Shown here one piece after another: positions 8,605 through 37,999 of a DNA stretch of 64,000 nt. The notes beneath the pieces were generated by a model. The model was given only the letters and a program-made list of their open reading frames with translations, did not search any database and was not told where the DNA came from. Location of the stretch: contig NZ_JAGHQU010000007.1 of assembly GCF_017744135.1 (NCBI RefSeq), forward strand, positions 62,001 to 126,000, written 5' to 3'. The DNA comes from Endozoicomonas sp. G2_2. Lineage in GTDB: Bacteria; Pseudomonadota; Gammaproteobacteria; Nevskiales; Salinisphaeraceae. The first letter of the stretch is position 1. Every line of letters starts with the position of its first letter. A program made the translations under genes and the position numbers.

Positions 8605-10093
8605 GACGATCCGGTATCTCGACGCTGAATTGCGCGCCGCCGCCCGGCGCGTCGTCGACGTCGATACGGCCGCCGTGGGCCTGGACGCATTCGCGCACCA
8701 CCGACAACCCAATGCCCGTGCCGCGCAGCGCGCCCTGGGCGCTCGCCTGGGTGGTGGCGCTCTGGTAGAAGGCGTCGAATATCGCTGCGCGCTCGGCCAC
8801 GGGCACGCCGGGGCCCTGGTCGCAGACACGCACGAGCGTGGCCTGCGCCAGGCGCCCGGCTTCGAGCGCGACGGTGGAACCCGCCGGCGCGAACTTCACC
8901 GCGTTCGCGAGCAGATTGTCGATGATCAGATGCATACGGTCCCGGTCGGCCGTGACGTGTATCGGCTGGCCCGGCGTCGTGACGTCGAGCTTCTTCCCCT
9001 CGATCGTGAGCCGCTGCCGGGCCACGATCGCCTCGAAAAGCGCGTTCAGATCGAAGCGCTCATATTCGAGTTTAGCGTGTTGTTGCTGCCAGGCTGCAAA
9101 GTCGAGCAGGTTGTCGATGAGCTTGGCCAGCTCGAGGCTGTTCTGCTGCAGTATTTCCGCGACATCCGCCTGTGCGCTCGTGAGTTCCCCGACCGTGCCA
9201 TCGCGCAACAGTTCCGCGCCCTCGCGGATGCTCGCCAGCGGCGTCTTGAGCTCGTGCGACATGTGGCGGATGAACTGCTGCTTTTCGTTTTCCAGGGTCG
9301 CCAGGCGCCGGCGCATCCAGTCGAGGCGCGCCCCGAGCGCGTCGAGTTCGGCGGTTGGCGCGAACACCCGGATCTGCTGCGAGAAGTCGCCATCGCCCAG
9401 CCGGGTGACCGCGCCCGAGATCTGGCGCAACGGGCGCGATATGACGGCCACGAAGAAGGCGGTCAGCGCCAGTACGCCCGGAATGAGCGCGAAAACGCAC
9501 AGCAGCAGAAAGGTGCGCGCGTCGGCGGCGGTGGCCTGCAGGCGGGCGAGTTCGCGGTCGATGAACAGGTTGCCCTGGTCGGTGATCAGATCGGTTTCGC
9601 GCTGCATCTTGCCGATCTCGCCGATCAGCCCGCCGACCTCTCCCGGCTGCGCCGACGCAAGCTGCCGGGACAGCGTGCGCGCCTCACGGCGCAGGGCGTC
9701 GAGGTTCCAGTCGGGCAGCGTGTCGAGCTGCAGCCCGCCGAGCGCATCGAGCATCGCGTCGAACTCCCGGGTCTGGCGTTCGAAGCGGTCGATCAGCTCC
9801 TCGCTTTCGAGCACGCCGTACTGACGGGCGCTGCGTTCCATGCCGATCAGCAGGGTGCTCAGCCGCTTGCTGTAGCGGGTGACCTCCACGCCCTGCAGCA
9901 CGAGGCGTTCGCTCTGGTCGGTAAGCCGATCCACGTACAGCACGCCGAACACGATGGCCACGATCAACGGCAGCGCGACCAGGCCGAAGCTGGTCAGCAG
10001 CAGGCCCGTGATCGAGCGGGGCCGGATGAACAGCCCGCGGCGTGGATTTTGAGCGCGGCCGGCGTCGGGGCCAGCGACAGCAGGTCGTGACAT
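8594..10093 (-). CDS. glrK: Sensor histidine kinase GlrK (QseE)
   Basis: Inner-membrane sensor kinase phosphorylating GlrR. The 499 residues show a TM helix at about 31-52 (LLLTSFGLVALPLIVAIVFGVLY), a helical periplasmic domain of about 140 residues, and a second TM near 195-215 (FLLLCVFALIPGVLALTAFFVAV). A HAMP linker (ISRPLRQISGAVTRLGDGDF), an H-box with the phosphorylated His (HMSHELKTPLASI), an N-box (DNLLANAVKFAP) and G-boxes (DQGPGVP, GTGIGLSVV) follow. The start MSRPAVAGPD was preferred over an upstream in-frame ATG at 10177 that adds 28 atypical residues. It is divergent from pmbA across 96 bp, with no sigma-54 promoter or TGTC-N10-GACA site visible there. Confidence 0.9.
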   Translation of the reverse strand: MSRPAVAGPDAGRAQNPRRGLFIRPRSITGLLLTSFGLVALPLIVAIVFGVLYVDRLTDQSERLVLQGVEVTRYSKRLSTLLIGMERSARQYGVLESEELIDRFERQTREFDAMLDALGGLQLDTLPDWNLDALRREARTLSRQLASAQPGEVGGLIGEIGKMQRETDLITDQGNLFIDRELARLQATAADARTFLLLCVFALIPGVLALTAFFVAVISRPLRQISGAVTRLGDGDFSQQIRVFAPTAELDALGARLDWMRRRLATLENEKQQFIRHMSHELKTPLASIREGAELLRDGTVGELTSAQADVAEILQQNSLELAKLIDNLLDFAAWQQQHAKLEYERFDLNALFEAIVARQRLTIEGKKLDVTTPGQPIHVTADRDRMHLIIDNLLANAVKFAPAGSTVALEAGRLAQATLVRVCDQGPGVPVAERAAIFDAFYQSATTQASAQGALRGTGIGLSVVRECVQAHGGRIDVDDAPGGGAQFSVEIPDRHAL

Positions 10094-10189
10094 GGCGCCT
10101 AGCATACCGTGACCGCTGCCATACGTTGCGTGTGCCAAGCCCGCGGCGCTAGTGTTCGCGCCATACTTTCTCGTCAAAGAGACGCCTGC

Positions 10190-11563
10190 ATGGCCAAGCG
10201 CCAGGATATCGAAACCACATCGGCCGCCGACGATCGCAGTCTGCCCGAGCTGGACTGGCTCAAGGATCGCGCCGGCGAACTGCTGGCGCAGGCGAAATCG
10301 GGCGGTGCGGACGAGGCCGAAGTTGCGCTATCGGCCTCGCGCGCGCTGTCCGTGAGCGCGCGGGCCCGCCAGCGCGAGTCGATCGAACACGAAGGCGATC
10401 GCAACGCCAGCATTACGGTGTATTGCGACAAGCGTAGCGGCAGCGCCTCGACCACCGATCTCACGCCCGACGGGCTGCAGGCCGCGCTCACACAGGCACT
10501 CACGGTCGCTCGTTTTACCGAGGCCGATGCCTTTGCCGGGCTTGCCGACGCCGAGCAGATGGCCGATGGCTGGCCCGATCTGTCGCTGTTTCATCCCTGG
10601 GGGCTGAGCGCGAATGGCGCGCTCGAGATGGCGCTCGCTCTGGAGGCGGCTGCGCTCGACCACGATCCGCGCATTGTCCAGACCGAAGGTGCGACGGTGG
10701 CCAGTCAGGACGGCGTGAGCGTGTACGGCAATAGCCACGGCTTCATCGCCGGCGAGCGTGCCAGTCGGCAGGCGATCAGCTGTCAGCCGCTGGCCAGTGC
10801 CGGCAGCGGTATGCAGCGCGAGATCGCTTTCTCGCAGGCACGCCATGCCGATGACCTCGAGGATGTCGCCGCCATCGGCCGCCTCGGCGCCGAGCGGGCG
10901 CTGGCCCGACTGGGGGCGAAAACGCCGCCGACCACCACCGCGCCGGTGCTGTTCACGCCGCGCGTGGCGCGGAGCCTCTGGAGTCACCTGATCGGTGCGA
11001 TCAGCGGCGGCACGCTCTATCGCAACGCCAGTTTCCTCAAGGATCGGATCGACGAGACGATCGCCGTCGACCGGCTCACGCTCACCCAGCATCCCCACCG
11101 TCCACGCGGGCTGGCCAGTGCCGGTTTCGACGGCGACGGTGTAGCCACCGCCGAGCGCACGCTTGTCGAGGCCGGCGTGCTGCGCGGTTATCTGCTTTCG
11201 GCGTATACCGCCCGCCGCCTGGGTCTGACGAGTACCGGCAATGCGGGCGGCGTATTCAATCTCGACGTCGCACCGGGCGTCGACGATTTCGATGCGCTGG
11301 TGGCCGGCATGGGTCGCGGTCTGGTGGTGACCGAACTGATGGGCCAGGGCGTGAATCTGGTCAACGGCGACTATTCCCGCGGTGCGGCAGGTTTCTGGGT
11401 CGAGAACGGCGAGATCGCTTACCCGGTCGAGAACGCCACGATCGCCGGCAATCTTGCCGATATGTATCGCAATATCGAGGCGTTTGGCAGTGATGTGGAA
11501 CGCGGTAGCGCGCTGCGTACGCCGTCGGTTCTGGTGGGGGCGATGACGATTGCGGGTAGTTAA
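10190..11563 (+). CDS. pmbA: Metalloprotease-related protein PmbA (TldE)
   Basis: Subunit of the TldD/TldE protease that degrades unfolded or modified peptides; in enterobacteria it matures microcin B17 and acts on the CcdA antitoxin. The 457 residues follow the family: N-terminal domain with ALSVSARARQRESIEHEGDRN, and C-terminal beta domain with GLASAGFDGDGV, TGNAGGVFN, GLVVTELMGQGVN and the ending TPSVLVGAMTIAGS. PmbA lacks the HExxxH zinc motif carried by TldD, and none is seen. The start MAKRQDIE has AAAGAG just upstream. It is alone on the plus strand and converges on mgtE across a 920-bp gene-free stretch. tldD is not in this window. Confidence 0.92.
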   Translation: MAKRQDIETTSAADDRSLPELDWLKDRAGELLAQAKSGGADEAEVALSASRALSVSARARQRESIEHEGDRNASITVYCDKRSGSASTTDLTPDGLQAALTQALTVARFTEADAFAGLADAEQMADGWPDLSLFHPWGLSANGALEMALALEAAALDHDPRIVQTEGATVASQDGVSVYGNSHGFIAGERASRQAISCQPLASAGSGMQREIAFSQARHADDLEDVAAIGRLGAERALARLGAKTPPTTTAPVLFTPRVARSLWSHLIGAISGGTLYRNASFLKDRIDETIAVDRLTLTQHPHRPRGLASAGFDGDGVATAERTLVEAGVLRGYLLSAYTARRLGLTSTGNAGGVFNLDVAPGVDDFDALVAGMGRGLVVTELMGQGVNLVNGDYSRGAAGFWVENGEIAYPVENATIAGNLADMYRNIEAFGSDVERGSALRTPSVLVGAMTIAGS

Positions 11564-11694
11564 TGTTTAGCGCTTGAGGCTTGCCTTGCGCCAGTGGATT
11601 TGAGTCGTTGATTCAAGAGGCTTTCGGTACTGGCTACGCGTTTTGCGCACTCGCGAGTTTGTCGTTTCTTTTGTTTCGCACTGCTGTGCGACTC

Positions 11695-11722
11695 ACTTTC
11701 TTTTGCTTGTCCAAAAGAAAGT
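11695..11722. repeat. 11-bp hairpin of the left arm
   Basis: ACTTTCTTTTG at 11695-11705 and CAAAAGAAAGT at 11712-11722 pair perfectly around the loop CTTGTC. The right arm has the same hairpin with two compensated base-pair changes. Confidence 0.85.
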
Positions 11723-11753
11723 AAGCAAAGGAAAAGGACACCCGGGCACAGCG

Positions 11754-11770
11754 CCGGCGCAAAGCGCCGG
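11754..11770. repeat. GC hairpin of the left arm
   Basis: CCGGCGC-AAA-GCGCCGG. Its right-arm counterpart lies at 12184-12200 with the outer C-G pair replaced by T-A. The same stem sequence recurs at 11849-11865. Confidence 0.8.
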
Positions 11771-11778
11771 TTCACTCC

Positions 11779-11887
11779 GACACGCAGCGGCGACGGGATG
11801 CGTACAGAACTCGGATCGCTTTGGCGATCCTCAGACATGCTGTACGCACCGGCGCAGTGCGCCGGACACCCGTCGCCACTCCGTGTC
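11779..11887. other. Five-helix multibranch fold inside the element
   Basis: Nested perfect pairings: GACACG 11779-11784 with CGTGTC 11882-11887; GGCGACGGG 11789-11797 with CCCGTCGCC 11869-11877; GCGTACAG 11800-11807 with CTGTACGC 11840-11847; GGATCGC 11813-11819 with GCGATCC 11824-11830; CCGGCGC 11849-11855 with GCGCCGG 11859-11865. Together they make an RNA-like junction of 109 nt. Confidence 0.7.
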
Positions 11888-11955
11888 TCCGTCGCCGTGC
11901 AACGGGCTGGAATACAGAAACAAAGCGCGCGGCAAGAGTCGCCTTTGCCGTGTTA

Positions 11956-11996
11956 GCCGAAATCCAACACGCGACTTGGTTCTCGTTGGATTCGGC
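11956..11996. repeat. Central hairpin between the two arms
   Basis: GCCGA-A-ATCCAAC at 11956-11968 pairs with GTTGGAT-TCGGC at 11985-11996, a 12-bp stem with one bulged A, near the middle of the element. Confidence 0.7.
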
Positions 11997-12091
11997 GGAT
12001 GCGCAGGCGGACGTGAAGGAACGCGACCTTGAGCGAGCGACAGCGAGCTTGTCTGTATTGGGTCCCCTTGGGCGCAGCGCCGAGCAGTGGA

Positions 12092-12167
12092 GGCCGAAAG
12101 AGAAAAAGACAGACGGATGTCTGAGTCGCGCGCAGCGCGGCGAGTTTCCGGCTGTCCTCTTTCGGCC
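12092..12167. repeat. 11-bp long-range stem in the right half
   Basis: GGCCGAAAGAG at 12092-12102 pairs perfectly with CTCTTTCGGCC at 12157-12167. It encloses CAGAC-GGAT-GTCTG at 12110-12123 and a GC hairpin near 12127-12142. Confidence 0.7.
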
Positions 12168-12229
12168 GGAGCCGCGCAGGGCATCGGCGCGAAGCGCCGA
12201 CGCAAGACAGGGCGTCTTTTGTTTTGGCT

Positions 12230-12257
12230 ACTTTTATTTGGGCGAGCAAATAAAAGT
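12230..12257. repeat. 11-bp hairpin of the right arm
   Basis: ACTTTTATTTG at 12230-12240 and CAAATAAAAGT at 12247-12257 pair perfectly around the loop GGCGAG. It is the counterpart of the left-arm hairpin at 11695-11722. Confidence 0.85.
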
Positions 12258-12483
12258 GGCTCGCACAGCAGTGCGAAACCCCAAGCCAAAACTCATCCGC
12301 GCCGTTGATTCACAACCCACGATTCTAAACCGCCATTGACCCCTCGTCGGCTGAAGTCGAGCGTGGCTTATTGTTTTCTGCACAAAAGCGCGATACATCG
12401 AGCCGGCCCGGCCTCGTCCGTTCACTCAAATGGCATCGCTCGGTGAGCGGCGACATCAAGGCGAATAGGTCGCGCCCTCGCCA

Positions 12484-13848
12484 TCAGCGCAGCAGAAAGA
12501 GTGTCCCGAGTCCGAGGAAAGCCCCGAACCCGATGACGTCGGTAATGGTCGTCAGCACCACCGAGCCGGCGAGCGCCGGATCGATTCCCATCTTCTTCAT
12601 CGCCAGTGGGATTGCCACGCCCGCGATGGCGGCGCCGATCTGATTGACCACGAGTGCGGCGGCGATGATCACGCCCAGGGTCGGGTTGCCGAACCAGACC
12701 TGCGCCACCACGCCGACCACGACCCCCCAGAGCACGCCGTTGATGACGGCCACCGCCAGTTCCTTGATCAACAGCGTCTTGGCGTTGCCGAAACCGATCT
12801 GGCCGAGCGACAGGCCGCGAATCATCAGGGTGAGCGTTTGCGAACCGCCGATGCCGCCCATGCTCGCCACGATGGGCATCAGCACGGCGAGGGCAACCAC
12901 CTGGGACAGTGTGGCCTCGAACAGGCCGACGACCTGTGCCGCCAGAAAGGCGGTGAGCAGATTCGCGCCCAGCCAGGTTGCACGGCGGCGCGCGCTACGC
13001 GCGATGGGCGCGAACACGTCTTCCTCCTCGTCGAGACCGGCCATGCTCATGATCGAGTGCTCGGCTTCGTCGCGGATCACGTCCACCACGTCGTCGATGG
13101 TGATACGCCCGACGAGCTTTTCGTTCTCGTCGACGACCGGCGCCGAGATCAGGTCGAGGTCCTGAAAGCGCTTGGCGACCTGGGCCGCGGCCATGTCCAC
13201 GGGCAGCGCCTCGAGGTCGGTGTTCATGACCTCGGATACGTCGCGCTCGGGGTCGAGCGTGACCAGCTTGGCCAGCGAGAGCATGCCCAGATACCGCCCG
13301 TAGCGCGAAACCACGAACAGCGATTCGGTATCGTCGGGCAGCGTGCCGCGTTGTTGCAGATATCGGCTGACCACGTCGAGCGACACGTCCGGACGCACCG
13401 TGATCGTGTCGTTGTTCATCAGGCCGCCGGCGGAATCCGACGGATAGGACAGCACGGCCTCGAGACGTTCGCGGTTGTCGACGTCCATCGAGTGCAGCAC
13501 TTCGCGCGTGACCTGCTCGGGCAGATCCTCGATGAGATCGGCGAGGTCGTCGATCGGCATGCCCTCGGTGGCGGCCAGCAGGACTTCGTCGTCGAGGGCG
13601 TCGATCAGCTCGGCACGCACTTCGTCGTTGACGTGCAGCAGCGTCTCGCCGTGATCGTCCTCGGGGACCAGACGCCAGACGAGCTCTCGCTTGGTCCGCG
13701 GGATCGATTCGAGAAGCAGGCCGATCTCGGCCGGATGCAGCGAATGCAGCAGCGGCTTGAGCCGGCGCATGCGCCCGGATTCCAGCGCCTCGTTGAGATG
13801 CGCGAGCCGCGATTCCATCTGATCTTCAGTGGTCTTGGCGTCGCTCAT
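12484..13848 (-). CDS. mgtE: Magnesium transporter MgtE
   Basis: Mg2+ channel/transporter of the inner membrane, gated by its cytoplasmic domains. The 454 residues show the N domain (helical superhelix, 1-135), two CBS domains (about 135-265, with SAGGLMNNDTITV, VVSRYGRYLGMLSL and ISAPVVDENEKLVGRITIDDVVDVI), the plug helix and five TM helices (about 290-450). Conserved MPIVASMGGIGGSQT and the ion-pathway segment SVVLTTITDVIGF are present. It is the last gene of the long minus-strand run, 83 bp after ptsI, and converges on pmbA. Placement after ptsI suggests co-transcription with the PTS genes. Confidence 0.94.
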   Translation of the reverse strand: MSDAKTTEDQMESRLAHLNEALESGRMRRLKPLLHSLHPAEIGLLLESIPRTKRELVWRLVPEDDHGETLLHVNDEVRAELIDALDDEVLLAATEGMPIDDLADLIEDLPEQVTREVLHSMDVDNRERLEAVLSYPSDSAGGLMNNDTITVRPDVSLDVVSRYLQQRGTLPDDTESLFVVSRYGRYLGMLSLAKLVTLDPERDVSEVMNTDLEALPVDMAAAQVAKRFQDLDLISAPVVDENEKLVGRITIDDVVDVIRDEAEHSIMSMAGLDEEEDVFAPIARSARRRATWLGANLLTAFLAAQVVGLFEATLSQVVALAVLMPIVASMGGIGGSQTLTLMIRGLSLGQIGFGNAKTLLIKELAVAVINGVLWGVVVGVVAQVWFGNPTLGVIIAAALVVNQIGAAIAGVAIPLAMKKMGIDPALAGSVVLTTITDVIGFGAFLGLGTLFLLR

Positions 13849-13931
13849 GGGGGCGCGGTATCCAGGCAGGGAGGTGGCCTCTAGAAAATAGCAGAAAAAT
13901 CCGGATTTTCCTGCGTTTTCTTAACGAATTG

Positions 13932-15671
13932 TCAGCCGCCGAGCTGCTCGCTCAAGGTCTCGAGCGCGTCGCGATAGGCATGCGAGTCGGTCAGCGCGAG
14001 AATCTCGCGCGTACGCGTTTTCAGCGCGGCGACGTCGGCACCCATGATCGCGCGCTTGACCTCGAGCACGCTGGCCGGATGCATGGAGAACTCGGTCAGC
14101 CCGAGGCCGAGCAGCAGCGCGGTGTAGCGCTTGTCGGAGGCCATTTCGCCGCACATGGATACGCTGATGCCGGCGGCCTCGCCGGCTTCGATGGTCATGC
14201 GAATGAGCTGCAGCACCGCCGGGTGCAGCGGATCGTAGAGATAGTTGATCTCGTCGTCGATACGATCCATCGCGAGCGTGTACTGAATGAGGTCGTTGGT
14301 GCCCAGCGAGAAGAAATCGCAGTACTGCGCGAGCAGCGGTGCGGCCAGCGCGGCCGCGGGGACTTCGATCATCGCGCCCACCGGCAGGTTGGCGTCGAAA
14401 TCCAGGCCGTCGCGGCGCAGCTCGTCCTTGAGCTCGCTGATCAGGTGGCGCGTCTGGCGCATTTCCTGGATGTTGGAGACCATCGGCAGCATCACCCGCA
14501 GGTCGCCCTCGGCCGACGCCCGCAGCAGCGCGCGCAGCTGGGTACGGAACAGGTCCGTCTCCTTGAGACAGAGACGGATGGCGCGCAGGCCCAGCGCGGG
14601 GTTGCTGGACGTCTTGCCGGTATCGCGGCCGATCGTCTTGTCGGCGCCGAGGTCGAGTGTGCGGATGGTGACCGGCCCGTCGACGGAACGCAGCACGCGG
14701 CGATAGGCCGCAAGCTGCTCTTCCTCGCCCGGCGTCTCGTCGCGATTCATGTACAGGAATTCGGTGCGGTACAGGCCGACGCCCTCGGCGCCGACCTCGG
14801 CCGCGTCCGCGCTGTCGTCGGGCAATTCGACGTTGGCCAGCATACGAATGCGAACGCCGTCGGTGGACAGCGCCGCCTCGTCCTTGAGCATGCCGAGCAT
14901 GCGCCGATAGCGGGCGTCTCGTTTCTGGCGATGACGATAGAACTCGAGCGCCGCGGCGTCCGGGCCGGCCAGTACATGGCCGGCCTCGCCGTCGACGACG
15001 ACGGTCTCGTCGTCGAGCAACATGCGGCGTGCGTTGTGCATGCCCACGATGGCCGGTATGCGCAGGCTGCGCGCCAGAATCGCGGAGTGCGACAAGGGGC
15101 CGCCGTGCTCGGTCACGAACGCGGCGACGCCCTGTTGATGCAGCAGGATGATGTCGGCAGGCGTGAGTTCGTCGGCGACGATGACCGGGGGCGGCGCATC
15201 GTCGGCCTCGCTGGTCTCGATGGTGCGCTCCTGCTTGAGCAGGATACGCTGGATGCGCGCGGTCACGTGGGCGACATCGTCGCGGCGCGTGCGCAGATAG
15301 CTGTCGTCCATCTGGTCGAACACCGCGGTGAGGTGCTCGGCCTGCATCTTCAGCGCCCATTCGGCGTTGCACTGGTGCTTGCGAATCAGTGACGCCACCG
15401 TGTCGGTGAGCGCGCTGTCCTGCATCATCAGCAGATGGGTTTCGATGAACGCACCGATCTCGGACGGTGCGTTGGCCGGGATCTGTTCACGAATATCGGC
15501 CAGCTGGGCGCGCGCGTCCGTGAGCGCGTTCCCGAAACGCTCGACTTCGGGCTCGATGTTGTCGGGCGCGATCGAATACTCGGGGATATCCAGATCGGTA
15601 CCGTGCACGCGATGCACGGCGCCGATCGCGACCCCGCGCGAGACACCGATTGCCGCCAGCCAGAGACTCAT
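13932..15671 (-). CDS. ptsI: Phosphoenolpyruvate-protein phosphotransferase (enzyme I)
   Basis: First step of the PTS: takes phosphate from PEP on a His and passes it to HPr. The 579-residue product has the N-terminal HPr-binding helices, the phosphohistidine segment GGPLSHSAILARSLRIPA, and the C-terminal PEP-binding barrel with GVGLYRTEFLYMNR, FSLGTNDLIQYTLA and SMCGEMASD. The start MSLWLAAIGVSRG was chosen; an in-frame ATG upstream at 15770 would run into ptsH and adds 33 unrelated residues. It lies 34 bp after ptsH. With no sugar-specific EIIB or EIIC nearby it probably feeds EIIA-type regulators. Confidence 0.94.
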   Translation of the reverse strand: MSLWLAAIGVSRGVAIGAVHRVHGTDLDIPEYSIAPDNIEPEVERFGNALTDARAQLADIREQIPANAPSEIGAFIETHLLMMQDSALTDTVASLIRKHQCNAEWALKMQAEHLTAVFDQMDDSYLRTRRDDVAHVTARIQRILLKQERTIETSEADDAPPPVIVADELTPADIILLHQQGVAAFVTEHGGPLSHSAILARSLRIPAIVGMHNARRMLLDDETVVVDGEAGHVLAGPDAAALEFYRHRQKRDARYRRMLGMLKDEAALSTDGVRIRMLANVELPDDSADAAEVGAEGVGLYRTEFLYMNRDETPGEEEQLAAYRRVLRSVDGPVTIRTLDLGADKTIGRDTGKTSSNPALGLRAIRLCLKETDLFRTQLRALLRASAEGDLRVMLPMVSNIQEMRQTRHLISELKDELRRDGLDFDANLPVGAMIEVPAAALAAPLLAQYCDFFSLGTNDLIQYTLAMDRIDDEINYLYDPLHPAVLQLIRMTIEAGEAAGISVSMCGEMASDKRYTALLLGLGLTEFSMHPASVLEVKRAIMGADVAALKTRTREILALTDSHAYRDALETLSEQLGG

Positions 15672-37351: not shown

Positions 37352-37706
37352 TCGGAGTCGGCCACGCAGCCGCGGTGCCCGCTCGCGGGCACGGAGGAAA
37401 GTCCGGGCTCCACAGGGCAGGATGCCAGGTAACCCCTGGGAGGCGTGAGCCTACGGAAAGTGCAACAGAGAGTAGACCGCCTATGGCCTGTTCGCAGGCC
37501 AGGCAAGGGTGAAACGGTGCGGTAAGAGCGCACCGCGCGTCCGGCAACGGTTCGCGGCACGGTAAACCCCATCCGGAGCAAGACCAAATAGGAGGACGAC
37601 GTGCGGCCCGCACAGTCCTCGGGTAGGTCGCATGAGGTGTACGGCGACGTACATCCCAGATGAATGGCTGCGCCAGACAGAACCCGGCTTATCGGCCGAC
37701 TCCGAA
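37352..37706 (+). ncRNA. rnpB: RNase P RNA (bacterial type A)
   Basis: Catalytic RNA that removes tRNA 5' leaders. The ends pair (GGAGTCGGCC at 37354 with GGCCGACTCC ending at 37703). Conserved segments appear in order: GAGGAAAGTCCGGGCTCC at 37394, AGAGTAGACCGCC, GGTGAAACGGTGCGGTAAGAGCGCACCG, the GGTAAACCCCATCCGGAGCAAGACCAAATAGG stretch, and AGATGAATGGCTGC with ACAGAACCCGGCTTATCGG. The GGATT-class 3' helices and length of about 355 nt fit type A. Exact ends are estimated. Confidence 0.95.
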
Positions 37707-37999
37707 TCCACCCCGGCCATTTGCCCCACTTTGGCCCTTTCATGGTCCGCCTTGTGGGATGACACCCCACTTGCGCAAATCGCGCGCCGATTTTCATTCC
37801 ACCGCGATAGCTGCGGTGGCGCAGTCGTTGGGGCATAAAGCCTTTTGCAGCGGTTCGAGGCTCATAAAATCGTCGAGAAAAAAGCGGTAAAACCCTAAAA
37901 AACAAAGCAAAAAATCGACCTCGATTTTCGGCTCAAATCGCTATCGGAAGGCGTCAGAAATCACTGTTTTGCTGAGATTTTTTCGCTTCCGGCTTGTGC

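Follow-up and report, generated by a model that had tools for sequence, protein, structure and literature searches.

The REPINs and BIMEs of Pseudomonas and E. coli are dispersed, intergenic inverted doublets whose hairpins show compensatory changes; in the sections of the source on which we draw (PMC3116915), singlets are regarded as remnants and 71 bp are given between the 16-mers of a GI doublet. The P. fluorescens repeats R0, R2, R178 and R200, in the portion of PMC2718517 that concerns them, are likewise dispersed, several with stem-loops and with a tail-to-tail bias, and measure 50-352 bp; R178 has an internal 11-bp inverted repeat (Silby et al. 2009). MITEs, too, are non-coding and repeated, with inverted ends. 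A further system to be compared is TwoAYGGAY (Rfam RF01731), which Weinberg et al. (2010; PMC2864571) describe, in the relevant part of their paper, as probably an RNA and probably without a cis-regulatory role, its RNA nature being assumed both there and in Rfam. CsrA binding has been suggested for it in part of another paper (PMC4333381), and the passages on TwoAYGGAY considered from these two papers mention neither arms nor inverted pairs.

The element analysed here is real, widespread and strongly folding; it belongs with the dispersed hairpin repeats, and one fragment of it is already catalogued under another name, TwoAYGGAY. As in REPINs and BIMEs, a repeated palindromic unit forms an inverted doublet outside genes, here at 29 of the element's 30 loci in its own genome, and its hairpins carry compensatory changes. 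REPINs and BIMEs are short units of about 100 bp, however, whereas this element is about 670 bp long with several hairpins on each side. Nor, in its own genome, was an arm seen beside the two matches to the RAYT family Y1_Tnp, and a RAYT is not present wherever the repeat occurs, 8 of the 47 genomes that bear it being without a match to Y1_Tnp. Because it differs in size and in its relation to RAYT, we liken the element to a large REPIN but do not file it as one. By its length, the element would be distinct from the P. fluorescens repeats. Unlike MITEs, it has a structured interior. No target-site duplication was visible by eye, among relatives that are highly diverged, and no parent IS was found near its loci; the 19-bp identical ends of its modules recall the terminal repeats of MITEs, yet the outer 25-35 bp differ between left and right. 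No description of the whole element was recognised in searches of open-licence PMC papers, in which six strings representing its motifs also had no occurrence.

Anatomy of the element

The window, by which we mean the whole 64,000-nucleotide stretch of DNA that was analysed, carries the element between an ORF ending at 11563, which we take to be pmbA/tldE-like, and a minus-strand ORF ending at 12484, presumably mgtE-like, so that it is intergenic. Its two inverted arms (11673-11736 and 12216-12279) are 64 nt each and 81% complementary, and they match perfectly over their outermost 19 nt (11673-11691 against the reverse complement of 12261-12279). A preliminary description of this DNA had pointed to these perfect ends and inverted similar arms, to an 11-bp hairpin with a 6-nt loop in each arm, and to compensatory changes in the stems. 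All of this is borne out, both hairpins being present and the paired changes directly readable in the sequence. The extent given at that time, 11673-12279, proved too short: homology among the genomic copies spans ~11648 to ~12314. The element is thus of ~667 bp and, as alignment of the copies shows, is composed of two homologous multi-hairpin modules, ~230-250 nt each, inverted and flanking a variable spacer. Its parts are as follows.

11648-11672, plus strand: left outer end, with a consensus of about CACTCACGAGTTTGTCGGACCTTTT in the genome's copies, differing from the right outer end (flanks of 29 left arms; conservation fades beyond)
11673-11920, plus strand: left module (29 left modules aligned: 13 of 62 consensus pairs changed on both sides)
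11673-11782, plus strand: left arm, comprising hp1, hp2 and hp3; matches covariance model R1 at 119.7 bits, the sequence itself being in the model's building set
11921-12049, no strand assigned: central spacer, little conserved among copies (alignment of 30 loci)
12050-12279, minus strand: right module, homologous to the left module and inverted (28 right modules aligned: 14 of 61 consensus pairs changed on both sides)
12172-12279, minus strand: right arm; matches R1 at 124.2 bits, again as a member of the building set
12280-12314, minus strand: right outer end; the copies in the genome have about TTTGGATCAACGGNGCGGGTGNATTTTNACTTGGG when read inward (from the flanks of 30 right arms)

Read inward, the left module consists of hp1, hp2, hp3, a long multi-branch stem and then a GAATACAG-type end. 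In both modules hp1 reads TCGCAC...GTGCGA and hp2 is an 11-bp A/T-rich stem, after which come an A-rich tail closing with CACCC or similar, hp3 and the long stem. AACTCG and CTCARACA flank the inner hairpin in both modules (in the left module these constant motifs of the multi-branch stem enclose a variable hairpin), and both have an AATACAG-type end. The folding energy of 11673-11927 as single-stranded DNA is -78.5 kcal/mol, where shuffles average -46.1 (sd 3.5; z -9.2), and 50 of the 176 modules collected from this genome and from other genera gave a mean z of about -6 on either strand (12 shuffles each).

With Rfam 15 at the gathering score, RNase P was the only match in the whole window (an RNase P RNA of class A at 37354-37707, plus strand), and the region 10000-14000 around the element gave nothing of weight at E up to 10. 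The preliminary statement that neither a protein gene nor a transposase lies inside the element is supported, none having been found, and its intergenic placement holds. ORFs do overlie it; the translations shared among loci, in recognised clusters of 49, 12 and 7 loci among others, are the element itself read in chance frames, and a hidden protein was rejected on this basis after clusters in more than five loci had been considered. At the ORF at 11560-11838 (minus strand) and at many other loci, such frames yield the recurring peptide FLCLLSFGxAKES..., and peptides of this kind are likely to be mis-annotated as proteins in databases.

Copies, covariation and spread

A nucleotide search of the genome (3.7 Mb; best 40 of 79 candidates) gave 30 loci, most of them covering most of the query at 72-89% identity. 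The further copies that the preliminary description had proposed looking for therefore exist, and a single local feature is ruled out. The arm covariance model R1 found 59 arms, as 29 inverted pairs and one lone arm, and no additional solitary arms among the best 150 of 4542 candidates scored; since the model was built from those same 59 arms (the left arm of L013 is absent), the count confirms rather than extends the set of loci.

Matched changes in the stems had earlier been read as selection for folding. In the alignment of 29 left modules (A2), whose consensus structure was derived from the very sequences tested, 13 of the 62 consensus pairs are changed on both sides, as against 9.4 in shuffles (2 of 500 as high). 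Of the cells in this alignment 98.2% are paired, compared with 33-45% in slid controls, and the score is 0.143 versus 0.053 in shuffles. Pair types number 17, fewer than the 19.4 of the shuffles, 491 of 500 of which reach that number or more. From the corresponding alignment of right modules (A3), L015 and L019 were left out on account of internal deletions. Across other genera, 67 arms from 43 hand-picked loci (A5) show changes on both sides at 23 of 26 pairs, in an alignment that was fitted to the model and so is biased towards its structure, and in which kinship among the sequences inflates the counts. There 97.1% of cells are paired, the slid control, which keeps relatedness, giving 42-56%, and the score of 0.373 compares with 0.109 in shuffles (0 of 500 as high). 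Covariation among homologues, within the genome and across genera alike, thus supports the earlier reading; it is decisive, and the element's fold has clearly been preserved by evolution.

In six copies (L005, L014, L018, L021, L022 and L023) the left type of hp2 stands on the right side, a pattern expected of conversion between arms. In another copy (L016, ~1470-1530) the left outer end occurs twice in tandem, ~31 bp apart, adjoining the element.

The supposition that similar hairpin-rich spacers occur in other gammaproteobacteria was correct, as covariance-model and pattern searches demonstrate. The covariance model detected arms in 47 of 61 genomes (this one and 60 relatives), among them all 13 congeners. 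With the best 63 candidates per genome scored, 0 to 61 arms were found in each, none being found in 14 of the 61, and counts near 60 (G000, G040) are lower bounds. In a survey of the phylum, 64 of 398 genomes had an arm match (best 9 candidates each): the genome itself, 48 from its class and 15 from other classes, the last being weak and tentative (E 3e-7 to 6e-4). Arm numbers and absences in these searches are lower bounds, since only the best candidates per genome were scored. About three-quarters of the 61 close genomes carry, in up to dozens of arms, an element that Rfam does not list in its entirety.

One exact pattern matched at least 120 stretches in named genomes. Among the 80 listed are representatives of Xanthomonas, Stenotrophomonas, Lysobacter, Dyella, Polaromonas, Acidovorax, Variovorax, Methylomonas, Silvimonas, Pasteurella and Aggregatibacter, together with MAGs labelled Desulfobulbus (one entry) and Selenomonadaceae (two entries from one MAG). 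The arms of the latter, a sheep-rumen MAG (L150, L154), may reflect either transfer or mis-binning. A single Aggregatibacter query found nothing in 20,395 records of E. coli. Inward-facing arm pairs within 700 bp numbered 20 in 29 loci, 12 in 29 and 18 in 59 in other genomes, the weaker matches of one locus set (29 of 81) being left out and the 59 loci being drawn from the 80 listed stretches of the at least 120 matched overall. Among the strong arms tallied, 71 had no partner within 700 bp (some of them at locus ends), six pairs faced outward and one was on the same strand. Phage records gave 0 of 50,697 for one query, plasmid records 14 of 72,556 for one query and 1 for another, and viral contigs 0 and 1 for two exact patterns; on account of this rarity, for the queries used, carriage by phages or plasmids was rejected.

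Genomic context and turnover

The genes flanking the element's own-genome copies are convergent at 15 loci, tandem at 12 and divergent at 2 (29 of 30 assessable with a simple ORF score), and in other genera at 14, 17 and 4, respectively (35 assessable, 4 more not). Among gaps of at least 100 bp used as a baseline, 3 of 18 in the window and 3 of 27 in other loci are convergent. Pooled, 29 of 64 element loci are convergent versus 6 of 45 baseline gaps (p 0.0004), the baseline being a rough one in that the ORF caller mis-called pmbA in the window.

Enrichment between convergent genes is what might be seen if the element were a bidirectional terminator or a stabiliser of mRNA 3' ends, with read-through from the preceding gene transcribing each module in the same sense, and there are 5 terminator-like sites in 11540-12500 where shuffles have 1.7 (sd 1.4). 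We nevertheless regard such a function as unlikely. The element far exceeds a terminator in size, its conserved motifs beyond hp1 would be left unexplained, and tandem genes flank 12 of the 29 own copies that could be assessed; moreover, some congeners manage without the element between pmbA and mgtE, where their spacers are of tens of bases.

The element is not tied to fixed loci. Between pmbA and mgtE, 12 of 13 congeners yielded no arm at the threshold of E<0.001, and 37 to 1791 bp separate the flank matches; a diverged right arm survives in G012, and G011 retains a remnant of hp1. The copy at L010 is common to the congener G005, at 76-79% identity, with no arm there in G003 and G007. At the position of L003, none of the three congeners has an arm; G005 has an end remnant, and in the other two the right flank was not found. 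At that of L024, no arm is present in three of three congeners and other DNA is found instead. Neither of these is a clean empty site, because the congeners have other DNA at both and, for L003, the right flank was not found in two of them. The sharing of L010 with G005 and the remnants in G011 and G012 indicate a slow turnover, and some of the pattern may be due to losses; copies seem to be gained and lost at a low rate. Movement is something that we infer; no target-site duplication or clean excision was found, none being visible by eye in the flanks or in the spacers of congeners, where relatives are highly diverged.

Slow turnover, a mostly chromosomal location and the convergent bias would all be compatible with a structural site of the chromosome, immobile and kept by selection, that binds gyrase, IHF or condensin or acts as a supercoil sink. 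Such a role is very improbable in our view, given that arms range from 0 to 61 within one order and that none was found in 14 of the 61 genomes (best 63 candidates each).

At least four mini-elements are present in G005, of ~90 bp or most of that, each comprising the left outer end, one hp1 palindrome and the right outer end (for example L301, G005:C41:36005-36094). They are probably deletion products; none was seen in the own genome among the best 40 of 65 candidates scored. In the pmbA/mgtE spacer of G012, a sequence of ~270 bp (L230, 719-988) with inverted ends GGGCCTGTTGATGTTTCG...CGAAACGTCAACAGACCCTA, lying by eye in a gene-like stretch, is perhaps another MITE-like repeat.

Around 169 loci no gene was seen to recur as a neighbour, as judged from examples of the 14 largest clusters. 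Cargo or a transposase between wide-set arms was also rejected, as the intervening DNA holds, by eye, nif-type genes in L126 and ordinary chromosomal genes in L150, with no gene in common. Y1_Tnp is matched in 39 of 47 arm-bearing and 6 of 14 armless genomes or, without the 14 genomes of the genus, in 25 of 33 and 6 of 14 (p 0.045). The own genome's two Y1_Tnp matches have no arm in the 4.5 kb and 3.0 kb around them (arm sequence searched), and one of the eight arm-bearing genomes with no such match has 61 arms. RAYT was rejected as sole driver because of those eight genomes.

RNA, DNA and the relation to TwoAYGGAY

Wobble pairs are scarce in the variable stems. The variable pairs of hp1 and hp2 include 0.6% G-T and 0.7% A-C, compared with 9.5% and 0.3% in the RNase P of 26 relatives (L249 and L271-L273 left out), a comparison that is not fully even in that the structures come from RNAalifold, which admits G-U but not A-C. 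At pairs 2-7 of hp2, 158 sites yield 907 Watson-Crick pairs, 5 G-T, 5 A-C and 31 other. Hairpins of the AYGGAY type, admitted only with 3 of 4 inner pairs Watson-Crick, yield 205 Watson-Crick, 2 G-T, 0 A-C and 1 other in 208 cells. At the outermost pair of hp2 that was counted there is an excess of A-C, 55 versus 1 G-T, which would be G-T on the opposite strand. Stems that swap full Watson-Crick pairs with few wobble steps are as expected of palindromic DNA. The preliminary description had left the choice between RNA and DNA open; the scarcity of wobble leans towards hairpins selected as DNA, without settling it. Against a DNA reading stand two RNA-like features, the constant unpaired motifs and the G-T pairs of hp3 (13.4%, mostly a single pair); the right modules have 3.3% G-T, also from one pair. 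By energy, 168 of 176 modules fold better outward, but composition accounts for 8.8 of the 10.3 kcal/mol advantage (shuffles, 50 modules) and no conclusion about strand is therefore drawn.

The preliminary description had also proposed comparison with catalogued families, with a divided outcome: there is no Rfam match above threshold at the element, but the inner hairpins of its relatives elsewhere are RF01731. Specifically, this family matches the inner part of the second (type-II) module in other genera at 7 of 20 and 2 of 18 loci (9 of 38), and all nine matches adjoin an arm on its inner side, with a slight overlap in two cases, and lie on the strand opposite to the inward reading. An independent search for RF01731, with E up to 0.001 allowed, located it in 12 of the 185 genomes examined from the class, 10 of them above the cut-off (best 14 candidates each), often in multiple copies and in inverted pairs. 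At E<1e-5 an arm is carried by 18 of 30 RF01731 loci, which come from 7 of these 12 genomes, a figure that includes the overlapping L317 and L329, the arm adjoining the latter having an E of 2.4e-5; loci from the remaining 5 genomes have none at that threshold. TwoAYGGAY and the element therefore share the two inner hairpins of type-II modules of other genera, as well as multiple copies and inverted pairs in several genomes. They differ in that the window has no RF01731 match, nor has the rest of the own genome or the congener G003, and in that the Rfam matches are the inner part, lacking arms and partner module.

These matches, the arms beside 18 of 30 of the independently found loci, the multi-branch fold with its constant unpaired motifs, the common G-U at the base of hp3 and an outward strand that folds slightly better than composition predicts in 33 of 50 modules would find an explanation if the element were a structured RNA, either a pair of convergent non-coding RNA genes or structures in 3'-UTRs, which might titrate CsrA in type-II modules. 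We consider this rather doubtful, as wobble pairs are nearly absent from the strongly varying stems, inverted pairs place the motif on both strands, a consensus scan of 11540-12500 reveals no sigma-70-like promoter, and neither the own genome nor G003 matches RF01731.

The reading that we prefer, and to which we would give about an even chance, is that of an old, chromosomal, dispersed non-coding repeat, REPIN/BIME-like and non-autonomous, whose DNA hairpins would be served by an enzyme acting in trans. The hairpins may act as single-stranded or extruded DNA recognised by this putative enzyme. The element would behave as a very large REPIN or BIME, occasionally moved or converted between copies, and would settle where it is least harmful, behind genes and often between convergent ones. 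A broader proposal, which we offer tentatively as a possibility, is of a hitherto undescribed superfamily whose members, DNA-hairpin elements with lengths of hundreds of bases, would occur throughout the Gammaproteobacteria (as defined in GTDB, including beta-proteobacteria). The multi-branch fold would be the substrate of the putative trans-acting enzyme, and the TwoAYGGAY 'RNA' would be a fragment read on the other strand. If the element does function at the DNA level, TwoAYGGAY, which Rfam lists among probable RNAs, should be interpreted anew, and there may be a new enzyme to discover, one that recognises hairpins in DNA. The wobble test, with RNase P as yardstick, could in turn sort RNA from DNA among other orphan 'structured RNA' families.

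Two minor observations concern Rfam families near or related to the arms. G020 holds many TwoAYGGAY copies; the two viewed (L316, L328) are without an arm and have another shared frame, and possibly represent a third module type. In L095, a Guanidine-II riboswitch (992-1041) lies ~460 bases from an arm, which is probably coincidental.
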